Source: Halalkalicoccus paucihalophilus (GTDB lineage Archaea; Halobacteriota; Halobacteria; Halobacteriales; Halalkalicoccaceae). Taken from it: a stretch of 64,000 bases of DNA. The stretch spans positions 124,001-188,000 of the forward strand of contig NZ_LTAZ01000003.1 in assembly GCF_001593955.1 (NCBI RefSeq). The letters are read 5' to 3'. This document shows positions 10,711-19,921 of the stretch, piece by piece. Below the pieces are notes generated by a model. That model ran no database searches and had not been told where the DNA came from. It saw only the letters and a list, made by a program, of their open reading frames with translations. A program made the position numbers and the translations under genes. Positions within the stretch are counted from its first letter, which is position 1. Every line of letters begins with the position of its first letter.

Positions 10711-12267
10711 ATGAAGGTCACCGACGCGCTCGACGGCGCCCTCTCGACGCTGGTCGAAAAGCCCGCGGCGGTCCTGCCGGCGTACTTCGTCGGCTACGGC
10801 GCCGGTACGGCTGCGCGGACGATCCCCCTCGTCGGGCTCGTTCTCGCGTACCTCCTCCTGCTCGTCCAGGGCCGTCTCGCCCCGGTCGAGGAGGCGCTCG
10901 CGGCGACCGACTTCGACGCGCTCGCGGAGGCGACGGACGACCCGGCGACCGCCGATCCCGCCGCCCTCCCGACCGAACAGTTGGACGAGGCGCTCGCGGG
11001 CCTCGTTACGCCGGGCGTCGTGGCGGTCCTCGGCCTCTCGATCCTGCTGGGACTCGCCGTCTGGATCCTCGTCGGTGCCGCCTTCCACGCCGGACAGATC
11101 CATACGGTGTACGCCGCCCTCGAAGGTAGAACGCCCGTCGAGTCGGGGGTGACGGGCGCGATTCGGGACACGAAGTCGTTCGTCGGACTTCGAGTACTCG
11201 AGTACGGCCTCCTTTTCGTCGCGAGCCTCGTCTACGGGCTCGTCGTCTTCGTCGCGAGTGCGGTCTACGCGGCCGATCAGGGGATCGGGCTGTTCGTCGC
11301 GGTCGGGGCCGCACTGCTGGCCCCGGTGTGGCTGCTCTCGCTTCTCGTGATCGCCGCCGCCTTCGTCTTCGCGCCGCAGGCGGTGGTCGTCGACCGTGGA
11401 GGGGCCATCGAGGGGCTCAAACGGAGCGTGGGGTTCCTCCGGCGACGACCGGGCGCGTTCGCCGTCTACGTGGTGATCGCGATCGGGATCTCGGCCGCGA
11501 TCGGCGGCGCGACCGCCCTCCTCTCGGTTCTCGGCGTCTCGAACGTCGTCTCGGTGCTCTCGTTGCTGTTCGTCACACCCTTTCTCCACCTCCTGAAGAC
11601 GGCCATCTACGCCGAGGGCGAGCGGATCGACACCCGCCCGCTGCTCTCGGACAAGGGTCGCGGGGTCCGGGCGCGACTCCGGGACGGCTGGGAGAAAAGC
11701 ACGGGGTCGCTGTGGTCGTTTGCCGTCTCGACGACGGGACTCGCGCTGACGGCGGCGAGCCTCGCGCTGTTCGGTCTCGGCACCCTCGGGGGCTATCTCG
11801 CGGTCGGCGGGTTCGCGATCGGGACGGGCGAGATCGCGGATCCCGCCGCCGTGTTCGGAGCGGTCCCGCTCGATATCTTCGTCATGATCGCGGTGAACAA
11901 CTGGCTGGTCGCGCTCGGCCAGACGTTCGCGGGGCTCGCGCTCGGGATCCCGACCGCGGTCAACCTGCTCTTTAACGGCGCGGTCGTCGGGATCGTCGCC
12001 GGGATCAGTAGCGATCTACTCGTGGTGGCCGCACTGGTCGTCCCCCACGGGATCGTCGAAATCCCCGCACTGGCGGTCTCGGGCGCGATCGGCCTTCACC
12101 TCGGGCACGTCGGCTGGCGGCGCTTTCGAGGCACGATCGACGACGCGGCGCTCGCGGCGGAGATCCGCACGGCTTTCTGGGTGATGGTCGGACTCGCGCT
12201 CGTATTCGTGGTCGCCTCGTTCGTCGAGGCGTTTCTCACCCCACGGATCGCGGGCTGGCTGCTGTGA
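10711..12267 (+). CDS. Polytopic membrane protein, haloarchaeal, function unknown
   Basis: 518-residue membrane protein with roughly ten or more hydrophobic segments separated by short charged loops. The first stretch (KVTDALDGALSTLVEKP, then a hydrophobic helix) and the amphipathic GGAIEGLKRSVGFLRRRPG segment recur in haloarchaeal membrane proteins related to the glycerophosphoryl-phosphodiesterase membrane domain. No catalytic or transport signature is visible. The start is the ATG at 10711, preceded by a gattatgcgac AT-richer element. An ORB-like 22-bp sequence begins right after the stop codon (12268). Confidence 0.8.
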   Translation: MKVTDALDGALSTLVEKPAAVLPAYFVGYGAGTAARTIPLVGLVLAYLLLLVQGRLAPVEEALAATDFDALAEATDDPATADPAALPTEQLDEALAGLVTPGVVAVLGLSILLGLAVWILVGAAFHAGQIHTVYAALEGRTPVESGVTGAIRDTKSFVGLRVLEYGLLFVASLVYGLVVFVASAVYAADQGIGLFVAVGAALLAPVWLLSLLVIAAAFVFAPQAVVVDRGGAIEGLKRSVGFLRRRPGAFAVYVVIAIGISAAIGGATALLSVLGVSNVVSVLSLLFVTPFLHLLKTAIYAEGERIDTRPLLSDKGRGVRARLRDGWEKSTGSLWSFAVSTTGLALTAASLALFGLGTLGGYLAVGGFAIGTGEIADPAAVFGAVPLDIFVMIAVNNWLVALGQTFAGLALGIPTAVNLLFNGAVVGIVAGISSDLLVVAALVVPHGIVEIPALAVSGAIGLHLGHVGWRRFRGTIDDAALAAEIRTAFWVMVGLALVFVVASFVEAFLTPRIAGWLL

Positions 12268-15144: not shown

Positions 15145-15948
15145 TCAACGACTGCTATCGTCGTCCCCTTCGACCGCATCGAACGTCTTTTCGACCCACC
15201 GTACCGCGAAGGGTGCGCCGTGGTCGCGATACGCCTTCGTATCGAGCGCGCCGAAGGGCGCGGGAAGGTCGAGGCCGTGTTTGATCGCGCTGCAGGCGAG
15301 TTCGGTCGCCTCCGCGAAATCGAGTTCGTTCGTAGCGATCAGCGAGGGGAGCTCCCCGATCCGGCCTTCGAGGCGCTCGCCGGCGTCGACCCACGCGTCG
15401 TACAGGGTGGGTTCCTCGCCGTCCCAGCCCGCGAAGACCTCGCGGGTGGAAAGCCCGCGCCACCCCGCAAAGAGGGCCGTGGCGACCTGATAGGTGGCGT
15501 TGGGACCGAGTCCCGTCGCTCTGGCGAGGGCGGGATATGCCTCCTCGAAGAATCCAAGAAACTGTTCGGGGACGTCGAGCCCGACCTCGACGAGCGCCTC
15601 GGCGATCAGGAAGTCGACGAACCCCTCGGGGACTCCTTCGATCCGTGCCTTGACGAAACAGAGCGGCGGCGCCGTCTGCGTGGTCCACGCGATGCTTCCG
15701 GCTCCGGGAGTGCCGACGACGAGGTCCGAACCGGCGTACCGCCGGAGGATCGCGGGGGCGTCTTCAGGGAGCCACTCGTCGGGGTGGCTCGTCGGCGAAA
15801 CGTCCTCGACGATGAGGGCGAGATCGTCGAGGGCCTCCCGAGGGAGAGTCTCGAAATCCCCGTCGCAGTCGAGCACCAGCGCGTCCGGAGCGTGTTTCTC
15901 ACGCACGCGCGAGAGGGCGGGCGAGAGCGGCCGCTCCTCGAACCTCAT
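15145..15948 (-). CDS. Conserved haloarchaeal protein, function unknown
   Basis: 267-residue acidic soluble protein that I do not recognise beyond being haloarchaeal. The N-terminal half alternates strands and acidic loops (ALVLDCDGDFETLP, LALIVEDVSP, DLVVGTPGAGSIAW); the C-terminal half is mostly helical. There is no membrane segment, Cys cluster or nucleotide-binding motif. The start ATG at 15948 overlaps the stop of a 30-residue membrane peptide gene upstream by four bases (ATGA), so translation is probably coupled. A partnership between this protein and the peptide is likely but unproven. Confidence 0.7.
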   Translation of the reverse strand: MRFEERPLSPALSRVREKHAPDALVLDCDGDFETLPREALDDLALIVEDVSPTSHPDEWLPEDAPAILRRYAGSDLVVGTPGAGSIAWTTQTAPPLCFVKARIEGVPEGFVDFLIAEALVEVGLDVPEQFLGFFEEAYPALARATGLGPNATYQVATALFAGWRGLSTREVFAGWDGEEPTLYDAWVDAGERLEGRIGELPSLIATNELDFAEATELACSAIKHGLDLPAPFGALDTKAYRDHGAPFAVRWVEKTFDAVEGDDDSSR

Positions 15949-16037
15949 ACGAGGAACGCGTAGTACGCGATCAACGCGAACGACAGGACCACCGAAATCG
16001 CGATCGTTCCGACCACGACCTTCGTAGCTTGGCTCAT
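15945..16037 (-). CDS. 30-residue single-span membrane peptide
   Basis: Very short frame: ATG at 16037, stop TGA ending at 15945. The product starts MSQATKVVVGTIAISVV and is one uninterrupted hydrophobic helix ending YYAFLV, with a single Lys near the N-terminus. Its stop overlaps the next start (ATGA), a hallmark of coupled genes. The ataaagg element at about 16061-16067 fits a TATA box ~27 bp upstream. Synonymous conservation in related genomes would be decisive. Function is unknown; it may anchor the downstream protein to the membrane. Confidence 0.65.
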   Translation of the reverse strand: MSQATKVVVGTIAISVVLSFALIAYYAFLV

Positions 16038-16123
16038 ACCGATCGAATCGCCGTCCCGGCGTATAAAGGTGAACATCCGAACCTCCGGGACTCCGTGACG
16101 ACCACACCCCGTCTTCGGGTGGA

Positions 16124-16149
16124 ACGAACCGCCGATATCGGCGGTTCGT
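16124..16149. repeat. 26-bp perfect palindrome
   Basis: Bases 16124-16149 read acgaaccgccgat followed by its exact reverse complement with no loop. It lies in the 178-bp gap between oapC and the 30-residue peptide gene, ~20 bp from an ORB-like box. It could be a dyad operator, a cruciform-forming origin accessory site or a transcription terminator for oapABC. Confidence 0.85.
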
Positions 16150-16168
16150 CAGTGATTCTAGACGTGTT

Positions 16169-16187
16169 GCAGGCGAAACGAAGGGGT
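16169..16187 (+). repeat. ORB-like element next to oapC
   Basis: gcaggcgaaacgaaggggt shares the uninterrupted core cgaaacgaaggggt with the origin boxes. It sits downstream of oapC, outside the main intergenic origin, in the same orientation as the 18158 and 12268 elements. Binding by Orc1 is inferred. Confidence 0.55.
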
Positions 16188-16215
16188 TATCACTCAGTTG
16201 AAGGTATCGGTGCTG

Positions 16216-16707
16216 TCAGTTCTCGGGGCCGCGCCGGAACGATTCGGGTACTTCAATGACGTACCGGCCGTTCTCCTGGAGCGCGATGATGAACTCCTCG
16301 CGCTTGTAGAGTTCCATCAGGTTGAGTTCGTACTGACCGTGATCGACGATCCGGATACTCTCGAACTGGTCGTTCAGTTCCTCTCGAAGCTGTGAGAGGT
16401 CCGGTCTGTCGTCGGCGTCGGGTTCGGATGCGGGTTCGCTTGCGGCCTCCGACAGTTCGTCGGCGTCGACGACCGACGAGCGGGCGTCCGCCTGCGCGCG
16501 GTCCTCGCGGTCGGGTGTGCCGCTCGACGCCGGTCGTTCATCCGACGGTTCGGGGGTCGGATCGGGCTCCGACTCCGGTTCGTCGGGCCGTCTCGCCCCC
16601 TCGGGGAGGAACTGGAACTTGTTGCCGCCACACTCCGGACAGCCCGAAAGCATCTCCTTCGAGCCGTCCTCGAAGGAGTGGCCACATTCCGTACACTGGT
16701 GGGGCAC
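16216..16707 (-). CDS. oapC: Origin-associated zinc-ribbon protein OapC
   Basis: 163-residue protein with an N-terminal zinc ribbon (CTECG at residues 5-9, CPECGG ~20 residues later). A long Pro/Glu/Ser/Asp-rich disordered linker follows, then a C-terminal domain (VDHGQYELNLMELYKREEF, ALQENGRYVIEVPESF). This architecture and its place after oapB and oapA beside an orc1 origin match OapC of other haloarchaea. It starts with GTG at 16707, two bases after the oapB stop. Oap proteins are linked genetically to origin function; the molecular role is not known. Confidence 0.82.
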   Translation of the reverse strand: MPHQCTECGHSFEDGSKEMLSGCPECGGNKFQFLPEGARRPDEPESEPDPTPEPSDERPASSGTPDREDRAQADARSSVVDADELSEAASEPASEPDADDRPDLSQLREELNDQFESIRIVDHGQYELNLMELYKREEFIIALQENGRYVIEVPESFRRGPEN

Positions 16708-17946: not shown

Positions 17947-17973
17947 ACCCCCACCCCTTCGTTTCGACTGGAG
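17947..17973 (-). repeat. Origin recognition box (ORB) 1
   Basis: On the minus strand it reads tccagtcgaaacgaagggg followed by tggggg: a dyad half (ccagt), the gaaacgaagggg core and a G-string tail. It is the left-hand box, with its tail pointing away from the AT-rich core. Orc1 binding is inferred from match to known haloarchaeal ORBs. Confidence 0.85.
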
Positions 17974-18373: not shown

Positions 18374-18395
18374 CTCCACTTGAAACAAGGGGGTT
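18374..18395 (+). repeat. Origin recognition box (ORB) 3 in the orc1 promoter
   Basis: Reads ctccacttgaaacaaggggg on the plus strand, 24-45 bp before the orc1 start. Its position over the probable promoter suggests that Orc1 could repress its own gene (inference). Confidence 0.75.
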
Positions 18396-18418: not shown

Positions 18419-19921
18419 ATGACAGCGAATGACTCACCAAGCGAGGACGGAACACCCAACGAGGAGCGAGACCAGTCGTTCGCCGTCGACGTCGAGGACG
18501 TCCTCGAGGACGGAATGCTCGATGAGACGGATTCGGGCTCGCAGGGGCTGTTCGACGACCTCCTTTCGGGCGAACCGATCTTCGAGAACAAGGAGGTGCT
18601 TCGCCCCTCCTATACCCCACACGAACTCCCGCATCGCTCGGATCAGATCAACAAGATGGCGACGATCCTCGTCGCCGCGCTCAGGGGTGAAACCCCTTCG
18701 AACATCCTCATCTACGGGAAGACGGGGACGGGAAAGACCGCGAGCGCGAAGTTCGTCAGCCAGGAGCTAGAACAGACCTCCAAGAAGTACGACGTCCCCT
18801 GTGAGGTCGAGTACATCAACTGCGAGGTGACCGACACCCAGTACCGCGTGCTCGCCCAGCTCGCGAACAAGTTCATCGAGCAGAACGAGGCCCACGTCGA
18901 ACGCCGTCTCTCGGATCTCGCCGACCTCCGCGAGGCCGTCGAGGAGGGTGTGACTGCAGCCGAAGCGACCCCCTTCGAGGATATCGGGGGGATCGACTCG
19001 CGGGTCGACGAACTCGAAGGCGAACTCGAGGACATGGAGCCGGTGCCGATGACCGGCTGGCCCACTGACCGGGTGTACAAAGAGTTCTTCGAGGCCGTCG
19101 ACTACCGCGAGCGCGTAGTGGTCATCATGCTCGACGAGATCGATAAGCTCGTCGAGAAATCGGGCGACGACACCCTCTATAACCTCTCGCGGATGAACTC
19201 CGAACTCGATAATTCAAGAGTGTCGATCATGGGCATCTCGAACGACCTCAAATTCACGGACTTCCTCGATCCTCGCGTGAAATCTTCGCTGGGCGAGGAG
19301 GAAATCGTCTTCCCGCCCTACGACGCGAACCAGCTCAGGGACATCCTACAGCACCGCGCGGATATCGCCTTCGAGGACGCCGCGCTGACCGACGACGTGA
19401 TCCCCCTCTGTGCTGCGTTCGCCGCCCAGGAACACGGCGACGCCCGCCGGGCGCTCGACCTGCTTCGAACCGCGGGCGAGCTCGCAGAGCGCAGCCAGTC
19501 CGAGCACGTCGACGAGAGCCACGTCCGCAAGGCCCAGGACAAGATCGAACTCGACAGGGTCGTCGAAGTGGTACGGACGCTTCCGACCCAGTCGAAACTC
19601 GTCCTCTTTTCGATCATCCTCCTCGAGAAGAATGGCGTTCACAACGTCAACACCGGCGAGGTGTTCAACATCTACAAACGCCTCTGTGAGGAGGTCGACG
19701 CAGACGTGCTGACCCAACGGCGGGTCACCGACCTGATCAGCGAACTCGACATGCTCGGGATCGTCAACGCCATCGTCGTCTCGAAGGGGCGATACGGCAG
19801 GACGAAGGAGATCAGCCTCTCGGTTCCGATCGAGGAGACCGAAGCGGTCCTGCTCGCGGACTCACGGCTCTCGGAGATCGAGGAGATCCAGCCGTTCGTG
19901 CAGGCCCGGTTCGACAATTGA
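18419..19921 (+). CDS. orc1: Orc1/Cdc6 replication initiator
   Basis: AAA+ origin-binding protein, 500 residues from the ATG at 18419. Walker A is GKTGTGKT (residues 100-107), Walker B is VVIMLDEIDKL, and sensor 1 follows at GISNDLKF. A family-specific ARRALDLLRTAGELAE helix and a C-terminal winged helix (FNIYKRLCEEVDADVLTQRRVTDLISELD) follow; the latter contacts ORBs. The ~50-residue acidic N-terminal extension is typical of haloarchaea. A TTG start at 18380 would place the N-terminus inside ORB 3 and is rejected. It is probably the initiator of the adjacent origin and loader of MCM. Confidence 0.95.
   Translation: MTANDSPSEDGTPNEERDQSFAVDVEDVLEDGMLDETDSGSQGLFDDLLSGEPIFENKEVLRPSYTPHELPHRSDQINKMATILVAALRGETPSNILIYGKTGTGKTASAKFVSQELEQTSKKYDVPCEVEYINCEVTDTQYRVLAQLANKFIEQNEAHVERRLSDLADLREAVEEGVTAAEATPFEDIGGIDSRVDELEGELEDMEPVPMTGWPTDRVYKEFFEAVDYRERVVVIMLDEIDKLVEKSGDDTLYNLSRMNSELDNSRVSIMGISNDLKFTDFLDPRVKSSLGEEEIVFPPYDANQLRDILQHRADIAFEDAALTDDVIPLCAAFAAQEHGDARRALDLLRTAGELAERSQSEHVDESHVRKAQDKIELDRVVEVVRTLPTQSKLVLFSIILLEKNGVHNVNTGEVFNIYKRLCEEVDADVLTQRRVTDLISELDMLGIVNAIVVSKGRYGRTKEISLSVPIEETEAVLLADSRLSEIEEIQPFVQARFDN

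Follow-up and report, generated by a model that had tools for sequence, protein, structure and literature searches.

A candidate distal Orc1-binding element behind oapC, one of several near the oriC1-type origin of Halalkalicoccus paucihalophilus

Gene content of the oriC1-type locus

The DNA analysed here is a 64-kb stretch of the Halalkalicoccus paucihalophilus genome (the window). Its central genes follow the order DUF7089, microprotein, oapC, oapB, oapA, origin, orc1, signal peptidase and dp1, which is that of an oriC1-type locus. The genes and boxes are listed in Table 1. OapA-C have been renamed ArvA-C, and the available part of PMC10927574 assigns their genes to the formation of extracellular vesicles in Haloferax volcanii; "origin-associated" therefore denotes the position of these genes and not a demonstrated role. 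In the whole genome of H. paucihalophilus (G000), 15 Cdc6_C matches were found, 14 of them above the family cut-off.

Table 1. Genes, boxes and palindrome of the oriC1-type locus (positions in the window; scores are motif scores)
Feature	Start	End	Strand	Evidence and remarks
Candidate distal ORB, single, at the stop codon of the membrane-protein gene 10711-12267	12266	12289	+	Score 23.7
DUF7089 gene	15145	15951	-	Pfam PF23363
30-aa membrane microprotein gene	15945	16037	-	Pfam PF24004, 33.4 bits; TATA-like TTTATA upstream
Degenerate ORB, left member of the oapC-gap pair, CGTTCCACCCGAAGACGGGGTGTG	16103	16126	-	Score 4.3, weak alone
26-bp perfect palindrome	16124	16149		In the spacer of the box pair; unconserved in relatives
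Candidate distal ORB, right member of the oapC-gap pair, TGTTGCAGGCGAAACGAAGGGGTT	16165	16188	+	Score 28.9; core 16174-16187
oapC (arvC)	16216	16707	-	Pfam PF09845, 107.5 bits
oapB (arvB)	16710	17096	-	Pfam PF09846
oapA (arvA), small GTPase	17101	17742	-	Pfam MMR_HSR1
oriC1 ORB, left	17952	17975	-	Score 37.1
oriC1 ORB, right	18156	18179	+	Score 39.1
Third oriC1 ORB, just upstream of the orc1 ATG	18372	18395	+	Score 29.2
orc1/cdc6 initiator gene	18380	19921	+	Pfam Cdc6_C (2.3e-32), Cdc6_lid; ORF opens at 18380, first ATG at 18420
dp1, DNA polymerase II (PolD) small subunit	20855	22435	+	NCBIfam NF003116, 967 bits
Left box of the dp1-embedded pair, degenerate	21104	21127	-	Score 8.6, best in dp1
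Right box of the dp1-embedded pair	21160	21183	+	Score 7.0, second-best in dp1; 56 bp from the left box

Orc1-type boxes around oriC1

A 24-column motif was built from a training set of 134 boxes, taken from the oriC1 regions of 80 named oapC loci. Scores of at least 10 were reached 352 times in these loci and once in 934 kb of the reversed loci, and neither 200 kb of DNA from elsewhere in the own genome nor 264 kb of reversed own sequence had any such score. Five boxes in the window reached this score (starting at 12266, 16165, 17952, 18156 and 18372), and the boxes of the window form a series at 12.3, 16.1, 18.0-18.4 (oriC1) and 21.1 kb. The suggestion in an earlier note on this DNA that oapABC is bracketed by Orc1-type boxes was borne out, with the bracketing reaching 12.27 kb and 21.1 kb.

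The order of the boxes, a single box at about 12.27 kb, the oapC-gap pair, three origin boxes and the dp1 pair, is shared by H. paucihalophilus and the congeners G004, G002 and G003; in G001 and G006 the order is the same, with some members weaker or below zero. A box directly after the same membrane-protein gene was also present in G001, G002, G003 and G007. When 59 genomes were searched with TSCASNNGAAACGAAGGGG at up to one mismatch, 33 of the 34 matches in G000-G004, G006 and G007, among the matches listed, lay within 8 kb of oriC1; these counts leave out G005, G008 and G009, the matches of which are on short contigs, and the reversed control pattern gave two matches.

Across the 80 loci, 154 of the 352 motif matches, distributed over 64 loci, were located outside the interval from -3500 to -1700 relative to the oapC stop, and ten of these, in 9/80 loci, fall 0-400 bp behind oapC. 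All denominators include 22 loci, many of them from Halorubrum, that have no oriC1 boxes at -3000 to -1700. Outside the family, boxes in the oapC gap are little more frequent than distal boxes in general, and their orientation is mixed. With a box in just 9/80 loci, the gap is therefore, outside the family, one of several places for distal boxes. ORB-like matches within the oapC coding sequence, about 370-490 bp before its stop, were observed in several genera (L050, L077, L085, L105 and L108), and may represent a further coding-embedded box.

The box pair behind oapC

Both a palindrome and a box lie in the oapC gap, which extends from the stop codon of oapC at 16216 to the start codon (ATG) of the PF24004 microprotein gene at 16037; both genes are on the minus strand. 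The ORB-like core that the earlier note had placed at 16169-16187 was recovered as CGAAACGAAGGGGT at 16174-16187, and the full box TGTTGCAGGCGAAACGAAGGGGTT starts 15 bp beyond the palindrome. In the 3.98-Mb genome the exact 14-mer CGAAACGAAGGGGT has two copies, the one behind oapC and a second in oriC1 at 17953; at up to one mismatch there are six matches, four of which cluster within 6 kb in the window. An oriC1-type ORB is recognised as a TTCCA-N5-GAAACGAAGGGG-like sequence with a G-string, and such a sequence is present at 16165-16188, scoring 28.9 compared with 29-39 for the oriC1 boxes of the window. The ORB-like box noticed earlier can thus be assigned to the oriC1 type, since 200 kb of background did not yield any score of at least 10.

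This box is kept in G001-G004, four of the five congeners, and G006 has a degraded version; loci from three other families (L008, L009, L014 and L018) have a box in the oapC gap too; L014 and L069 are apparently one record, with an identical box. An alignment of the congeners showed that the right gap box and its near flank are conserved and that the spacer, which contains the palindrome in H. paucihalophilus, is variable.

The left member is degenerate, and its score of 4.3 compares with a background of five scores of at least 3 per 200 kb; its support comes only from conserved position and spacing. The two boxes face outward and form an inverted pair, with a spacing of 61-62 bp in H. paucihalophilus and G001-G004 and weakly so in G006, and the opposite box scores 4.3 in the own genome, 7.7 in G004, 6.7 in G002, 6.6 in G003, -4.5 in G006 and -11.0 in G001. 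In the sister genus (G007 and G008) the spacing is 54 bp and the boxes are weak. Single partner boxes are weak evidence, because random 91-bp stretches reach such scores (the best partner exceeded -3.6 in 1% of them and -11.4 in 5%). What argues for a pair is the repeated orientation and spacing, in species that are related to each other.

The spacer of the pair is 38 bp long and holds the GC-rich palindrome, and no conserved AT-rich stretch between the gap boxes was found in the congener alignment. The pair is located behind oapABC, about 1.9 kb from oriC1 and not directly adjacent to orc1/cdc6. The oapC-gap site thus lacks two features by which archaeal origins are recognised, adjacency to orc1/cdc6 and an AT-rich unwinding region.

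Two further gaps were of note. In L101 (Halovivax asiaticus), a strong inverted ORB pair, with scores of 30.2 and 30.4 and a spacing of 80 bp, is found 157 and 237 bp past the oapC stop. In L004 (G002), the first 107 bp or so past the oapC stop are a MITE-like insert that has terminal inverted repeats of 18 bp, TGATAGGGATCATCGTAG; the insert displaces the ORB pair while leaving it intact.

The palindrome in the spacer

The loopless perfect dyad of 26 bp reported in the earlier note was confirmed, with ACGAACCGCCGATATCGGCGGTTCGT at 16124-16149 consisting of two arms of 13 bp. The second-longest loopless palindrome of the window has 18 bp. From composition, 0.003 palindromes of at least 26 bp are expected per window and 0.15 per genome; a 26-bp palindrome is rare per window, yet not beyond chance genome-wide. 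In 264 kb of the own genome it is the only palindrome of at least 20 bp, and 934 kb from the 80 haloarchaeal loci contained three (20, 24 and 28 bp). Perfect loopless palindromes of 28 and 24 bp were located in the haloarchaeal loci L055 (489-516) and L094 (1399-1422), respectively.

The earlier note had proposed a comparison of this gap across related genomes, and regarded absence of the palindrome from close relatives with conserved oapC and origin as refuting it. For the palindrome this is the result obtained: the locus was found in five congeners (G001-G004 and G006), all of which keep oapC and the origin boxes, and the dyad is absent from their oapC gaps (0/5), where no inverted repeat is longer than 4-7 bp. 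The flanks of the palindrome are shared by G004 and G002, which differ in the middle. The candidate roles named at the time, a cruciform, an operator or a terminator, were not supported: apart from the missing dyad in the five congener gaps, palindrome and box pair have centres 9 bp apart, the region 15900-16400 contains no terminator-like site and no T-tract after a stem-loop, and the RNA fold is exceptional only in the own species. A scan for sigma-70 promoters and terminators gave nothing. Membership of a repeat family or regulon was rejected on the single copy, and a conserved element on the absence from relatives. The one Rfam match scored 23.8 bits, below the gathering score of 153, and was treated as chance.

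A function restricted to H. paucihalophilus, either as the single-target operator of a dimeric repressor or as an RNA hairpin protecting the 3' end of oapC, appears very unlikely. It would account for the perfect 26-bp dyad, for the predicted fold of -23.6 kcal/mol (z -4.8) and for the terminal repeats ACGAAC/GTTCGT, which occur in G002 as well. However, the palindrome has one copy in its own genome at up to three mismatches, a search of 293 genomes of the order returned one match elsewhere, at three mismatches, the folds of the five congeners reach only z -1.1 to +0.2, and the terminator-like site is missing. The palindrome probably has no conserved role, as judged from these comparisons, and is probably a neutral, species-specific change of the spacer. 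It may have arisen by template-switch correction of an imperfect ACGAAC...GTTCGT repeat.

The box pair inside dp1

Within dp1 of H. paucihalophilus, the two boxes of the embedded pair score 8.6 and 7.0, and the third-best score in the gene is -12.5. The pair was present in 34 of the 47 dp1 loci for which both the N-terminal and the catalytic part were found, with 33 spaced at 56 bp and one at 53 bp, all in frame and free of stops, in a count that allowed frame-keeping spacings only (50-68 bp in steps of 3). When the spacing was left unconstrained, 23 of 26 close minus/plus pairs in the 80 loci had exactly 56 bp between box starts. The pair occupies a variable stretch between the N-terminal and catalytic parts, about 190-400 nt from the beginning of the matched gene part. 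Seven of the loci that carry the pair are named as Haloarcula.

Rare codons are fixed in the boxes: GTT in 24/24 (5% elsewhere in dp1), ACT in 24/24 (3%), GGA in 24/24 (6%) and CCA in 29/30 (6%), together with GAA in 33/33 (22%). The codon test covered 33 of the 34 pairs, preselected by motif score, and the result is conditional on this selection. For pairs chosen in this way, the fixation of rare codons suggests selection at the DNA level. The exact 56-bp spacing and the rare-codon fixation, both seen across genera, point to active constraint on the boxes. A hidden palindrome in the spacers of the dp1 pairs was considered and rejected; the spacers had a slight excess of dyad matches (mean 5.94 of 16 versus 4.49 after shuffling; single-value sd 1.86).

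By an independent pattern, inverted pairs were detected in 116 of the 293 genomes searched, covering 45 of 87 genera, and the reversed control gave 0. Among the matches listed, all 17 placeable pair matches of 62 or 59 bases lie in dp1, and both matches of other lengths (G050 and G122) lie outside it. Also among the matches listed, dp1 of G040 is located about 40 kb from oriC1 and still contains a box, the pairs of G107, G151, G170 and G189 are 15-18 kb from arvA, and that of G249 is about 75 kb from arvA.

Interpretation of the distal boxes

The boxes and their conservation, orientation, spacing and clustering near oriC1 were established by computation, and their identity as ORBs is well supported by the motif. 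Because the distal boxes match the oriC1 box motif, the Orc1 protein encoded by the adjacent gene is predicted to bind them.

For the feature in the oapC gap, the explanation that we tentatively prefer is a distal oriC1-type candidate Orc1-binding element, one of several within about 6 kb of oriC1, which would sequester initiator after firing. The distal boxes would then act mainly as initiator-sequestering sites: the fork would copy them shortly after oriC1 fires, and the added box copies would take up free Orc1 and damp re-initiation. This explanation is preferred because near-origin sites would double soon after firing, because the boxes in dp1 tolerate distance, and because distal ORBs behind cdc6E are reported, in the available part of PMC3936714, to restrain oriC2 in Haloarcula hispanica. 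Retention of a dp1 box at about 40 kb from oriC1 in one genome, and pairs at 15-18 kb from arvA in four, among the matches listed, fit such tolerance of distance.

Several observations do not favour sequestration. The left gap box is degenerate and the own dp1 pair is weak, the gap box outside the family is infrequent and of mixed orientation, and a few boxes are possibly too few to take up enough initiator. Boxes outside the origin, as expected of a titration site, are present, but the density per site is low, with 1-2 boxes versus 11 in oriC2D. In addition, the sites adjoin genes that are open to regulation by them, boxes that move with dp1 would suit regulation of dp1 equally well, and the pair of G249, among the matches listed, is far from arvA.

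A second hypothesis, in which we have still less confidence, is that oriC1 is the centre of a dispersed array of Orc1 boxes with pairs of set spacing behind oapC and, at exactly 56 bp, in dp1, through which the initiator would limit its own re-use at the origin and sense or set the supply of PolD; initiator control would then be embedded in a polymerase gene.

The main rival to sequestration is regulation of the adjacent genes, which we nevertheless consider unlikely. Orc1 at the distal boxes would repress or block the microprotein-DUF7089 unit, and dp1 from within its 5' coding part, and polymerase or membrane genes would thereby be tied to the initiator level. The gap pair just upstream of the conserved TTTATA in the microprotein promoter region, the position of the dp1 pair in the gene, and boxes that travel with dp1 15-40 kb from the origin region (among the matches listed) are consistent with such control; the 12.27-kb box, however, is at the 3' end of a gene, and genome-wide the boxes concentrate near oriC1 and not at many promoters.

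Looping is less likely than regulation, and an accessory role at the origin, in which distal Orc1-bound pairs loop to oriC1 or load extra MCM as subsidiary starts, seems improbable. The inverted layout with outward G-strings is the same as in oriC1, and the clustering within 8 kb of oriC1 would be expected, but plasmids replicate in H. hispanica from a minimal oriC1 that has two ORBs (as described in the accessible text of PMC3936714), the boxes are kept when dp1 is far off, and the gap spacer lacks a conserved AT-rich stretch. That the distal boxes are decaying relics of a once larger or duplicated origin is highly improbable: decay would be in line with the degenerate boxes of the own dp1 and of the G006, G007 and G008 gaps, but the exact 56-bp spacing with fixed rare codons across genera indicates active constraint, and box positions are steady across congeners.

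How archaea avoid re-firing of origins is poorly known, and the titration proposal, as presented in the available part of PMC3936714, rests on one origin in one species. The box set described here makes the question directly testable, with a defined set of distal Orc1 boxes and one pair, inside a polymerase gene, that is removable by synonymous change.

Comparison with known systems

datA of Escherichia coli is a bacterial element with DnaA boxes, which have no homology to the haloarchaeal boxes. As a locus of initiator-titrating boxes away from the origin, it offers an analogy only, and it is cited as a model in the accessible text of PMC3936714.

According to the accessible parts of PMC3528665 and PMC4595724, haloarchaeal origins are defined by ORBs in intergenic regions next to orc1/cdc6, and surveys restricted to these regions would miss origin-linked boxes. 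ORBs downstream of many ori-cdc6 regions are also mentioned in the portion of PMC3936714 available. In the literature covered, subscription papers aside and partly as excerpts, no description of distal oriC1 boxes or dp1 boxes was found.

The haloarchaeal oriC1 ORBs, inverted and with a halophile G-string (PMC3936714 and PMC3528665, available parts), have the motif and the outward G-string in common with the distal boxes. The distal boxes differ in being 1.9-5.8 kb from the origin and not in the intergenic region next to orc1, and their pairs have a short spacer, no AT-rich unwinding stretch and, in one case, a position within coding sequence. The G-rich inverted-repeat enhancer of oriC1 is likewise an inverted repeat between two inverted ORBs (PMC3936714, available part). 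Whereas that enhancer is inside the origin, the palindrome at 16124 lies off-centre in a distal pair, has another sequence and is unconserved.

Another parallel is oriC2D of H. hispanica, which likewise has extra ORBs outside the origin that are proposed to titrate initiator; as far as the available part of PMC3936714 describes it, oriC2D is a single region of 722 bp immediately behind cdc6E that carries 11 ORBs and serves oriC2. In contrast, the candidate sites of the window have one to two boxes each and are scattered around oriC1.
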